The notes under the pieces: generated by a model
Databases searched by the model: none
The model's input: the letters and a program-made list of their open reading frames with translations, nothing else
What the model was told of the DNA's origin: nothing
From: a virus
DNA: 38,534 bases
Strand: one strand, 5' to 3'
IMG/VR virus record: IMGVR_UViG_3300037847_003227
Coordinates: 1-38,534 of that record
In this document: positions 4,450-7,478 of the stretch, piece after piece
Layout of the letters: every line of letters begins with the position of its first letter
How positions within the stretch are numbered: the first letter of the stretch is position 1
Program-made: the position numbers and the translations under genes

Positions 4450-5367
4450 TCAATTTAAGAGTGTTACACCTTTGGATTCAAAACTCTCACGAGATTCCGT
4501 CCATAGCTGTCGTTCTTGATGCCAATCGATACGTTCTAGTAGATTTTTATATTTCTTTCTACCTTCTTCTATTAGATTGTTTCCTATCTCGAACACTCTT
4601 ACTTGATAATAACCGGTTGTTTCTACTGCAATTATATATACTTTGTCAACAAGCATGTAATTGTCTTCTAATGCATCTACATAGAATGCCATCTGCCTGT
4701 CATAATGATAATACTCAAAGGAATCTCTAAACATCTCCACACTTTTGGAGGTAGTCTTGAGATCTATAAGGTTGACTTTAGTACCAGTCTTCTGATACCT
4801 GTCAATTTTGGATTTATACGCTTGATTTGGTCCCCAAAAATACTCTGATTCATTTTCTCCATCGCCTGTAAATAACAGGTCAGATGCTGCTTTGTGTGTA
4901 GTTATAGAATCTTTAATAGCTGATAACATACTAGCCATCTTCTGATCTATACATACTTTACCATCAGCACGTAGTAAAAAATCATAGTAGTCTTTACCCT
5001 GATCAATAACTTTCTTGATTAGTGTATCTGGTTTCCAGGTTTGTCCATAATTTAGTTCTCTTGCAGAACCAAATATGTATTCATGGTATTTATTTATGTC
5101 TGTATCTATTTCTCCTTTTGTTATATTATATACTTTCTCCATGATCTTAACAATAGTATCACTAGGTCTTTCTACATCCGCAATAGCAAACGTTTCAGGC
5201 TCTAGTATAAACTTATGGATCATACTACCATGATATAACGAAGGAGTTTCTAGATGCTCTAAATTACCATCTAGATAGTCTTTAAATTTACGTGGACTAC
5301 CTCCTTGTTCTGGGTTAATATAACTTAAGGAGGAGTTACTTATTCTTTTATCTTTATAATACTCCAT
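4450..5367 (-). CDS. RecE-like PD-(D/E)XK exonuclease
   Basis: 305 residues. It has the layout of RecE/exodeoxyribonuclease VIII-like nucleases: YHGSMIHKFILEP (about 45-57, the G-x-x-H helix), a long helical middle, then the catalytic core KSKIDRY (Asp189), LIDLKTT (Asp202, Lys204; here the D/E-x-K has Asp) and the following YDRQMAFY helix with the conserved Gln (225). These enzymes resect double-stranded ends 5'-3' and work with single-strand annealing proteins. A Sak4-like ATPase, an SSB-like protein, NinB-like and RusA-like genes in the same block fit such a recombination system. A Cas4-type relative is the alternative, but the four-cysteine cluster is missing. Confidence 0.8.
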   Translation of the reverse strand: MEYYKDKRISNSSLSYINPEQGGSPRKFKDYLDGNLEHLETPSLYHGSMIHKFILEPETFAIADVERPSDTIVKIMEKVYNITKGEIDTDINKYHEYIFGSARELNYGQTWKPDTLIKKVIDQGKDYYDFLLRADGKVCIDQKMASMLSAIKDSITTHKAASDLLFTGDGENESEYFWGPNQAYKSKIDRYQKTGTKVNLIDLKTTSKSVEMFRDSFEYYHYDRQMAFYVDALEDNYMLVDKVYIIAVETTGYYQVRVFEIGNNLIEEGRKKYKNLLERIDWHQERQLWTESRESFESKGVTLLN

Positions 5368-5397: not shown

Positions 5398-6231
5398 CTA
5401 AAAAATGTATCTTATAGACTCCAAACTAAAATATTGTCTATAGATTTCTTTGAATTCTTCTAATAATCTAGTCTTATGTTTTATAGGATATCGTAATACA
5501 CCTGACCGGTTTTTTACTTCTTTACTATATTGCATAAGCTCTCTAGCTTCTTCGCTTGCTTTAGCCATTTGTAGCGGATGATTAGTAAGCGCTATAACTT
5601 CACACTTATTCTCTCCCGCATGTTCTAGTACATCTTTAAATAGCTTGTCATATAGTTTATCCCAACCAGGATAAAATACTAAAGGACTATAGTTTAAGTG
5701 TACTTCCCATCCCAGGTTCTTTAATCTATTTATATCTTGTATTCTAGATTCTATCTTTTGCATTTTAGGCTCAAGTATATCAGAATACTTTTGCGGCATC
5801 AATGATACACGCACTCTAGGACGTTTAAAGAAATGATTTACATCTAGTTTTAATAAACCAGGATACTTTGTAGCCATAGTTGTATTTATTTCTGGATGCC
5901 CATCATAATATGCAAGATAATCATGTAAGCTTAATGGCATGTGTTTCTGCATTAATACTAGATCTGTATTGCAAGCTATATCTACCATTTTATATACAGG
6001 GTCTTGTTGATCCGGTGTCTTTTCATAGGTTGTAGCCCAATGAAATACAGAATCTACTATATCTAGATAGTTTTCGTTTACAAATACTCTACGTCCATTG
6101 TATCTAGACATATAGCAATATGTATCTACGCAACCACCAAAACATCCATATATAAGATTAGGAGCTATAGCGTTAGCACTATTATTATTAGGTTTTGTTA
6201 CTAAAGTTTTTGTTTTCTGTGTTTTTATCAT
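5398..6231 (-). CDS. Spore photoproduct lyase-like radical SAM protein
   Basis: 277 residues from ATG 6231-6229; a longer frame exists only through a TTG at 6309 across a structured intergenic element. Residues 24-44 hold the iron-sulfur motif, CFGGCVDTYCYMSR, so Cys30, Cys34 and Cys39 are spaced CX3CX4C, not the usual CX3CX2C. The context (CYM then a basic segment and VFVN) matches SplB. DIACNTDL (Cys87) aligns with the EGSCTSDP segment that holds the hydrogen-donor Cys of SplB. RVRVSLMPQ, the EPKMQKIESRI helix, SPLVFYPGWDKLYDKLF and the final RYPIKHK...EIYRQYF region also match SplB. SplB repairs a UV thymine dimer in DNA, so a repair role is inferred. It lies between RIIB and the RecE-like nuclease. 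Confidence 0.8.
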   Translation of the reverse strand: MIKTQKTKTLVTKPNNNSANAIAPNLIYGCFGGCVDTYCYMSRYNGRRVFVNENYLDIVDSVFHWATTYEKTPDQQDPVYKMVDIACNTDLVLMQKHMPLSLHDYLAYYDGHPEINTTMATKYPGLLKLDVNHFFKRPRVRVSLMPQKYSDILEPKMQKIESRIQDINRLKNLGWEVHLNYSPLVFYPGWDKLYDKLFKDVLEHAGENKCEVIALTNHPLQMAKASEEARELMQYSKEVKNRSGVLRYPIKHKTRLLEEFKEIYRQYFSLESIRYIF

Positions 6232-6247
6232 AATTACTATATAAAAA

Positions 6248-6324
6248 GAGGAGGTTGGGACTCGGTAACCCTGCACATTATGCTCAGCAAAAGCCAGTGA
6301 ACTGAACAAACGCTTGACCCCCTC
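6248..6324 (-). terminator. Large branched terminator-like RNA element (77 nt)
   Basis: Read on the minus strand, a 7-bp closing stem (GAGGGGG at 6324-6318 with CCTCCTC at 6254-6248, one G-U) encloses 63 bases and is followed directly by TTTTTAT. Inside are GGG/CCC arms (6257-6259 with 6269-6271) and CAGT/ACTG arms (about 6294-6303). It sits 3' of RIIB and 5' of the radical SAM gene. The size is that of a tRNA, but no cloverleaf with a proper anticodon arm can be drawn. It shares short motifs with the element at 21866-21933. Confidence 0.55.
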
Positions 6325-6338
6325 GATTATAAACCATC

Positions 6339-7478
6339 TTATGCAACCATCACAAGTCTTTCTCTCATAATGTTTGCTTTTTCTGCAGCTTCTTGACTTC
6401 TAGAACCTTGGAACTGTGCCAATTGTTCTTCTAACGTTTCTGTTTCCCACGTTTTATAGTCATACTCAAAGTATGGTGTAGTAATAGTTACGTCATTAGT
6501 CAAGTCTACAATACCATATGCATAGTATTCACAGCATCTCATCTTCATATAAGAATAATCAGATGGTACTGCTACAACATTCATAGGGTTAACTAGACAA
6601 GCAAGGTAAACGTTGCCGTTACCTCCGCCAAATCCTTTTACATAGCCTGGCGCACCAACATGTAAACCAGTAGAACAGGTATTTCTAGGGTCTCCATCAC
6701 ATGCGGATCTATCCATTGTGACAGGAGAACCAAGTCTGATCTCTGATGTACCTTGATGCCAGTCAGTAAACTCAGGAGCTTCTACAGTCTCATCTGTAAG
6801 ATTGTTTATAGAATTAAACATCTCTTCTAGATTACCTGCAACGTGCTCAGGTGCAATAAAATTACCCTTGCTGTCTGTAATAAGACTAGTCTCTACAATA
6901 GAGAAATCACCATTCTTATCTACAACTGTGTAATCTTTTGGATCCTGACCAGATGCTTTTAATTGTATATACTCCTTTGGTACCCACATATTCACTGCTT
7001 TGTATGTTTTCTCAGTCTTCTTTACAGACTTGTAGGCTATAAAATAACCAGAGTCTGTAATAGGAAACTCATACTGATCCATAAAATTATATAGATCTCT
7101 CTTTACATGATCTGCAGGGTTTAACATTAACAGCTTCCAGAAGTTTACAAGAGGAGTCAAAGGCAATCCTTTGTCTATAAACTCTTTCATCTTTGTAAGC
7201 AGTTTACTTGGTAGGGGCTCAGTGAACCCCTTTAAATACCAATTACCTATCTCATCTTTAACTAGACTCTGTGCATCAAACACTTTCTGAGTCGGGTCAA
7301 AGTCTTCTACTAATTGCTTTACAAGGTCATTAGTAGGATTTAGTGCTACAGTTTTAATTTTCTCATATAGAGATTGCGCACTTGTCTTGTCAGTTTCGTC
7401 TCTATAGTAACTGACACCATTAACTAGCGCAGTAACGGCTTTGTCACTGCGAATTGCAAATACTTGATTTTTACTCAT
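6339..7478 (-). CDS. rIIB: RIIB-like protein
   Basis: 379 residues. Recognised by the phage RIIB pattern: LNPADHVKRDLYNFMDQYEF then ITDSGYFIAYKSV (about 118-152), the later block with GSPVTMDRSACD, CSTGLHVGAPGYVKGF (about 268-284), and CLVNPMNVVAVPSDYSYMKMRCCEYY (about 293-318, not quoted in full elsewhere). In T4, RIIA and RIIB are membrane-associated and let the phage escape exclusion by lambda RexAB; the biochemical activity is not known. The gene overlaps the end of rIIA by 8 bases (ATGAGTAA), as expected for a translationally coupled pair. The 77-nt terminator-like element follows. Confidence 0.85.
   Translation of the reverse strand: MSKNQVFAIRSDKAVTALVNGVSYYRDETDKTSAQSLYEKIKTVALNPTNDLVKQLVEDFDPTQKVFDAQSLVKDEIGNWYLKGFTEPLPSKLLTKMKEFIDKGLPLTPLVNFWKLLMLNPADHVKRDLYNFMDQYEFPITDSGYFIAYKSVKKTEKTYKAVNMWVPKEYIQLKASGQDPKDYTVVDKNGDFSIVETSLITDSKGNFIAPEHVAGNLEEMFNSINNLTDETVEAPEFTDWHQGTSEIRLGSPVTMDRSACDGDPRNTCSTGLHVGAPGYVKGFGGGNGNVYLACLVNPMNVVAVPSDYSYMKMRCCEYYAYGIVDLTNDVTITTPYFEYDYKTWETETLEEQLAQFQGSRSQEAAEKANIMRERLVMVA

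Follow-up and report, generated by a model that had tools for sequence, protein, structure and literature searches.

The window, by which we mean the whole 38,534-nucleotide stretch of viral DNA analyzed here, carries on its minus strand a genuine open reading frame whose product is an SPL-type (spore photoproduct lyase-type) radical SAM protein. It spans positions 5398–6231, starts with the ATG at 6231 and encodes 277 residues; the assignment draws on Pfam SPL, TIGR03886, an AlphaFold2 model and the VIA match of that model to 4rh0/4fhc. An rIIB-like gene (6339–7478, minus strand; phrog_609, 4.5e-39) lies on the 5' side of the SPL gene, and a PD-(D/E)XK nuclease gene of the ExoVIII/DUF3799 type (4450–5367, minus strand; phrog_412, 5e-38; Pfam DUF3799) lies on the other side. 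Synteny among contigs with and without SPL marks the two as the left and right borders, respectively, of an accessory site. A candidate three-way-junction RNA (6243–6324, minus strand) is located between rIIB and SPL. The TerL protein is 39% identical to that of Flavobacterium phage FpV21, and the MCP is 34.6% identical to that of crAssphage ctcc615 and 32.5% to that of Bacteroides phage crAss002. Judged by its terminase and capsid, the phage is crAss-like (Crassvirales), and its host is probably a member of the Bacteroidota. Bacteroidota form no endospores, and the suggestion of a preliminary description of this DNA, that the phage infects non-spore-formers, agrees with the host deduced from these two proteins.

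Between rIIB and the ExoVIII-like gene, the SPL gene forms an accessory cassette. In two contigs with an rIIB identity of 91–93% (L362 and L363), rIIB is followed directly by the ExoVIII-like gene, and SPL is likewise missing between rIIB and ExoVIII in L365 and L372. The gene occupies the same site in L368 and L369 and, as far as the contig extends, in L370. An assembly chimera is an unlikely source of this arrangement, since the same order recurs in L368 and L369. In 110-kb phages, the SPL protein is 71–79% identical to that of the window while the terminases are only 26–29% identical, and the gene lies at a different site, often directly after a MazG-like gene. This disparity, together with the different site, argues that the accessory cassette has crossed phage lineages. 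No family for the protein was found in PHROGs, and PADLOC found nothing for the gene.

The upstream RNA-like element has the form GGGGUCAAGC-[hairpin]-GYRCAGGGUUACCGAGUCCCAACCCC, in which the core is strictly conserved and the stems covary. The GYRCAGGGUUACCGAGUCCCAA core is invariant, the outer stem is compensated (the conserved core and compensated stems being seen in 7 distinct sequences), the hairpin is variable and the end is often a run of U. The element is present in 13 IMG/VR stretches and the window, that is, in 14 phage contigs (including L366, L368, L369 and L376–L388); in the SPL-less L362, L363, L365 and L372, its place is taken by a plain terminator. The folding z-score of the region alone is weak (−1.47). 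No Rfam family was matched at the gathering or a relaxed threshold, and a riboswitch or other known RNA was rejected for that reason; a tRNA was rejected because ARAGORN found none, and protein-coding conservation because the reading frames differ between L366 and L369. Since the element also occurs in seven phage contigs without SPL, of up to 113 kb, and has no adjoining SPL gene in L366 and L367, it is not functionally tied to the enzyme, although its position fits the accessory site. It stands outside the enzyme story and deserves its own look. In L368 and L369, the RNA element and SPL are separated by a small ORF of the Fis-like helix-turn-helix type (RLICKALNR...ASKLLGI..RTLYRYL), which in L366 follows the RNA element and which the window lacks.

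The window protein matches Pfam SPL (PF20903) at 5e-15 and 55.6 bits, above the gathering cut-off of 27, and a sequence search of the PDB retrieves SPL at 2e-8. Its best NCBIfam family is TIGR03886, “spore photoproduct lyase family protein” (lyase_spl_fam), at 2e-38 and 132.2 bits, under the equivalog cut-off of 437.55; SplB (TIGR04070) comes second at 50.2 bits, under its equivalog cut-off of 400. With the Pfam, TIGR03886 and PDB scores and with cysteines invariant in 59 sequences, the match to SPL is far from chance. The protein is thus a member of the SPL superfamily that falls outside both named equivalogs, and by sequence score it is nearer to TIGR03886-type proteins, which come from non-spore-formers, than to SplB, with which the preliminary description had compared it.

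An AlphaFold2 model computed from 58 sequences reaches a mean pLDDT of 93.1 and a pTM of 0.91. Six SPL entries head the Foldseek ranking (E of 1e-14 to 2e-13), the next entry being at 5e-5, and VIA-align superposes the model onto SPL (4rh0/4fhc) with a Z of 26.4 and an rmsd of 2.4 Å over 264 residues, the next fold reaching a Z of 13.6. The model has the radical SAM barrel fold and also matches PFL-AE, RlmN, viperin and biotin synthase. An unrelated radical SAM family, which the preliminary description had named as one outcome that would overturn its reading, was rejected, as both structure searches rank SPL first and the families retrieved are TIGR03886 and SplB. That the phage encodes a radical SAM enzyme of the SPL type is upheld by the Pfam score, the SPL fold and the crAss-type terminase and capsid. 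The preliminary description had also seen a match to SplB along the whole length, which is correct in part: model residues 1–277 align to SPL residues 62–341. Residue 1 pairs with SPL residue 62, so that the N-terminal ∼60–80 residues of SplB are missing (277 residues compared to about 340), and TIGR03886 scores better than TIGR04070 (132 and 50 bits). The model puts the three cysteines of the cluster motif near the barrel's N-terminal end, the position that the motif has in SPL. The conformation of the cluster loop is less secure, since the model is least certain for residues 31–50, comprising the loop and the segment that follows it, where the pLDDT drops to about 71–74.

The cluster motif (6115–6144, minus strand) reads C30-FGG-C34-VDTY-C39, that is, CX3CX4C, with Y38 preceding the third cysteine. 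As had been read directly from the sequence, the spacing is two residues longer than the CX3CX2C of SplB, and it departs from canonical radical SAM spacing. Accepted radical SAM members with other spacings exist, such as ThiC with CX2CX4C. ThiC has a non-canonical architecture (PMC4389238). Sequence alignments to Geobacillus SPL (4fhc) pair C30/C34/C39, Y38, Y40, C87, D90, K122, R141 and S143 of the window protein with C90/C94/C97, Y96, Y98, C140, D143, K174, R193 and S195, and all ten residues are invariant in the phage set. The codons of Y38 and Y40, which flank C39, lie at 6112–6120 (minus strand) and that of C87 at 5971–5973 (minus strand). C140 of Geobacillus SPL (C141 of B. subtilis) is the hydrogen-atom donor, and Y96/Y98 (Y97/Y99 of B. 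subtilis) have roles in the tyrosine relay (PMC3742179). The equivalence of C87 with this donor, proposed earlier, is borne out by the alignment and by its retention, along with C30, C34 and C39, in 59/59 distinct phage sequences. At codon 21 (6169–6171), the window protein has an alanine where 58 of the 59 have a cysteine; this extra, nearly invariant cysteine is therefore not essential.

These 59 distinct sequences represent 134 relatives that were retrieved from IMG/VR with the window protein alone, and CX3CX4C is common to all of them, as is C87. A second IMG/VR scan with a mixed alignment matched at least 599 stretches, at least 587 of which encode a relative. No relative of the window protein was found among 50,697 cultured or deposited phage records, and one weak partial match was obtained when a Bacteroidota chromosomal protein was compared with cultured and deposited phages; no relatives of the window gene were found at the DNA level. 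A second phage group (L284–L302) also has CX3CX4C, with identities of about 42% to the window protein and about 50% to the Bacteroidota one. On chromosomes, CX3CX4C proteins occur in one of 395 sampled Bacteroidota genomes (G180) and in three of 299 genomes of its order (G180, G822 and G844), as a form of 293 residues with a CLGGCRDSYC motif and a GCSTD donor site. G844 has two nearly identical copies about 17 kb apart (L358, 4056–5024; G844:C5:183950–184819), and the locus between them resembles CRISPR-Cas by eye. Among the matches listed, all 118 distinct clade members recovered, from the two phage groups and the three Bacteroidota chromosomes, are CX3CX4C, and no viral sequence falls outside this class. 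Since the same spacing is seen in every viral genome and in the three chromosomal genomes, we dismissed the idea that the extra residues of the cluster loop are a one-off or a sequencing insertion. On the sequences recovered, the motif marks the whole phage-plus-Bacteroidota clade and is not peculiar to the window protein, and the branch is large, strictly conserved and present in phages and some Bacteroidota chromosomes.

A maximum-likelihood tree of 63 proteins unites those with CX3CX4C in a single clade (support 100/98), within which the phage forms are again one clade (100/100) with the chromosomal forms as their sister. The CX3CX4C clade joins the Cys-type Bacteroidota members of TIGR03886 (93/81), in the part of the tree that holds TIGR03886 and away from canonical SPL. 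The next outgroups are one Rickettsiales MAG protein on a long branch and Spirosomataceae proteins, all with CX3CX2C and a donor-site cysteine (GCNSD, CNED). The simplest story is that a cellular Cys-type ancestor lost its N-terminal part and acquired two more residues in the cluster loop, after which phages spread the gene. The median dN/dS in the phage family is 0.085 over 213 pairs, and the gene is under strong purifying selection.

We favor, at a little better than even chances, the interpretation that the protein is an SPL-type radical SAM enzyme that reverses a thymine-dimer-like lesion in phage DNA. A crAss-like phage of Bacteroidota would make this compact enzyme during infection. Going by motif and fold, C30, C34 and C39 would hold a [4Fe-4S] cluster and bind SAM, the cleavage of which would yield a 5'-deoxyadenosyl radical. 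By alignment with the SPL mechanism, this radical would abstract a hydrogen from a thymine-derived DNA lesion, which would then break apart, C87 would give a hydrogen atom back, and Y40, aided by Y38, would relay the radical back so that SAM is rebuilt. The product would be repaired DNA, which could aid replication of a genome exposed to light in the virion. The gene itself is accessory and passes from one phage lineage to another.

Evidence counted for DNA repair comprises the full SplB relay, the SOS/LexA control predicted for SPL-like genes of alpha- and beta-proteobacteria (PMC3323433), the linkage of SPL-like genes to ImuB-C operons and of SplB-like proteins, through operons, to SOS components (PMC3765255), and a photolyase gene that adjoins a TIGR03886 gene in a Streptomyces plasmid. 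SPL outside spores is thus not itself new (PMC3323433, PMC3765255). Gene neighborhood is no proof of DNA repair, since the neighborhoods of the cellular relatives are uninformative and the Bacteroidota chromosomal copies sit in unrelated contexts. The lesion would not necessarily be the classical spore photoproduct, because the HxNxSP residues are shared with TIGR03886 and not with SplB, the cluster loop is longer, the SplB score is low and the N-terminal part is missing. The window enzyme may act on another lesion or substrate, as the preliminary description had it. A further-reaching proposal, which we advance tentatively and consider less likely than not, is that the CX3CX4C branch may constitute a class of radical SAM DNA enzymes distinct in function. 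Its members would hold the cluster differently and act on a substrate of their own, a lesion or base in DNA that is not spore photoproduct, and crAss-like phages would have spread them among Bacteroidota of the environment. Searches of the literature open without subscription found no paper for CX3CX4C plus radical SAM, none for crAss-like phages plus photoproduct lyase, and neither paper nor biochemistry for the TIGR03886 branch.

The SplB set of catalytic cysteines and tyrosines, kept in the window protein where most TIGR03886 members have a donor-site glutamate, could also mean that the enzyme is a true spore-photoproduct lyase. Densely packed, low-water virion DNA, a state that may favor spore photoproduct, would then accumulate this lesion in sunlight and be repaired after injection. 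We consider this unlikely, as the protein reaches only 50 of the 400 bits of TIGR04070, lacks the N-terminal segment of SplB and has HxNxSP rather than GFVVAP, and the literature yielded no measurement of spore photoproduct in virions. It is quite unlikely that SPL chemistry on thymine instead serves DNA or nucleotide modification, installing or editing a modified base, with escape from restriction as one conceivable purpose. The gene does belong to a replication/nucleotide module of the window (UDG, ExoVIII, primase and DNA polymerase), and a MazG-like gene overlaps the SPL start in several 110-kb phages. However, no hypermodification partners (hydroxymethylase, glycosyl- or aminotransferase) were recognized among the window ORFs tested, the hydrogen-donor cysteine is a lyase requirement for quenching the product radical, and close phages lack the SPL gene entirely.

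Radical SAM folds are widely reused, and the RNA-modifying RlmN and MiaB come next in the fold list, so that only the SPL fold might have been kept, with RNA, tRNA or protein as the substrate. As these next folds stand at half the SPL Z and every residue of the SPL catalytic set is invariant, we regard such a substrate as highly improbable. A decaying, inactive copy acquired from the host is scarcely credible: the accessory gene is missing in close relatives and Ala21 replaces a cysteine found in 58/59 sequences, but the frame is open, the catalytic residues are invariant, dN/dS is about 0.085 and the gene is found at no fewer than 134 viral loci.

To our knowledge, almost all that is known of spore photoproduct lyase comes from spores. 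The clade described here consists of short SPL-type enzymes in many uncultured phages, with the SplB relay intact, an unusual cluster spacing and strong purifying selection. If they reverse a thymine-derived lesion, as we prefer to think, a testable question is which lesion phages of non-spore-formers repair by radical SAM chemistry, and whether spore-type photoproducts arise in packed virion DNA. The natural variants, with cysteine, glutamate or serine at the donor site and two or four residues in the cluster spacing, should be useful to dissect the SPL mechanism.

Compared to SplB (TIGR04070; PDB 4fhc–4fhg, 4k9r and 4rh0), the window protein has the same fold over residues 1–277, three cluster cysteines, and equivalents of Y96/Y98, C140, D143, K174 and S195, with 18% identity in the structure alignment. 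SplB differs in its CX3CX2C motif, in its N-terminal segment of ∼60–80 residues, which the window protein lacks, and in the GFVVAP segment that takes the place of HxNxSP. The C-terminal region of SplB, like its N-terminal segment, is unconserved in the window protein. H178, N180, S182 and P183 are invariant and shared by the window branch and TIGR03886, and are not found in SplB.

The Glu-type TIGR03886 proteins of Proteobacteria, Actinobacteria and Deinococcus share HxNxSP, SLMP, LTxN, RY...K and RYxF with the window protein at about 30% identity, but have CX3CX2C, a donor-site glutamate (GEN[GS]D) and an N-terminal extension. The cellular TIGR03886 proteins of L081–L084 and L094–L164 mostly have this glutamate where SplB has the hydrogen-donor cysteine, and their chemistry may be different; the cysteine is kept in members from Bacteroidota and in three Myxococcaceae proteins. 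In Roseomonas and its kin (L081, 134–1586; L097, L103, L125, L129, L134 and L161), the Glu-type gene is followed directly in tandem by a second SPL gene of the Cys type (GCPAHC...SCYTD). A further Bacteroidota SPL-like group (L256, L258 and L259; NCVYDCDYCYLQ) has a serine at the donor position (ALSYDTD). The nearest well-supported named cellular relatives are the Cys-type TIGR03886 proteins of Spirosomataceae (Larkinella, Spirosoma and Fibrisoma), which resemble the window protein in the donor-site cysteine (GCNSD) and in CFGGC as the first half of the motif, and differ from it in CX3CX2C and a full N-terminal part, at 31–33% identity. The chromosomal proteins of G180, G822 and G844 have the same short form as the phage proteins, with CX3CX4C and the GCSTD donor cysteine, and are 35–40% identical to them (alignment A3); their C-terminal stretch LLWRPDIQEHKRS is shortened in the phage group of the window.
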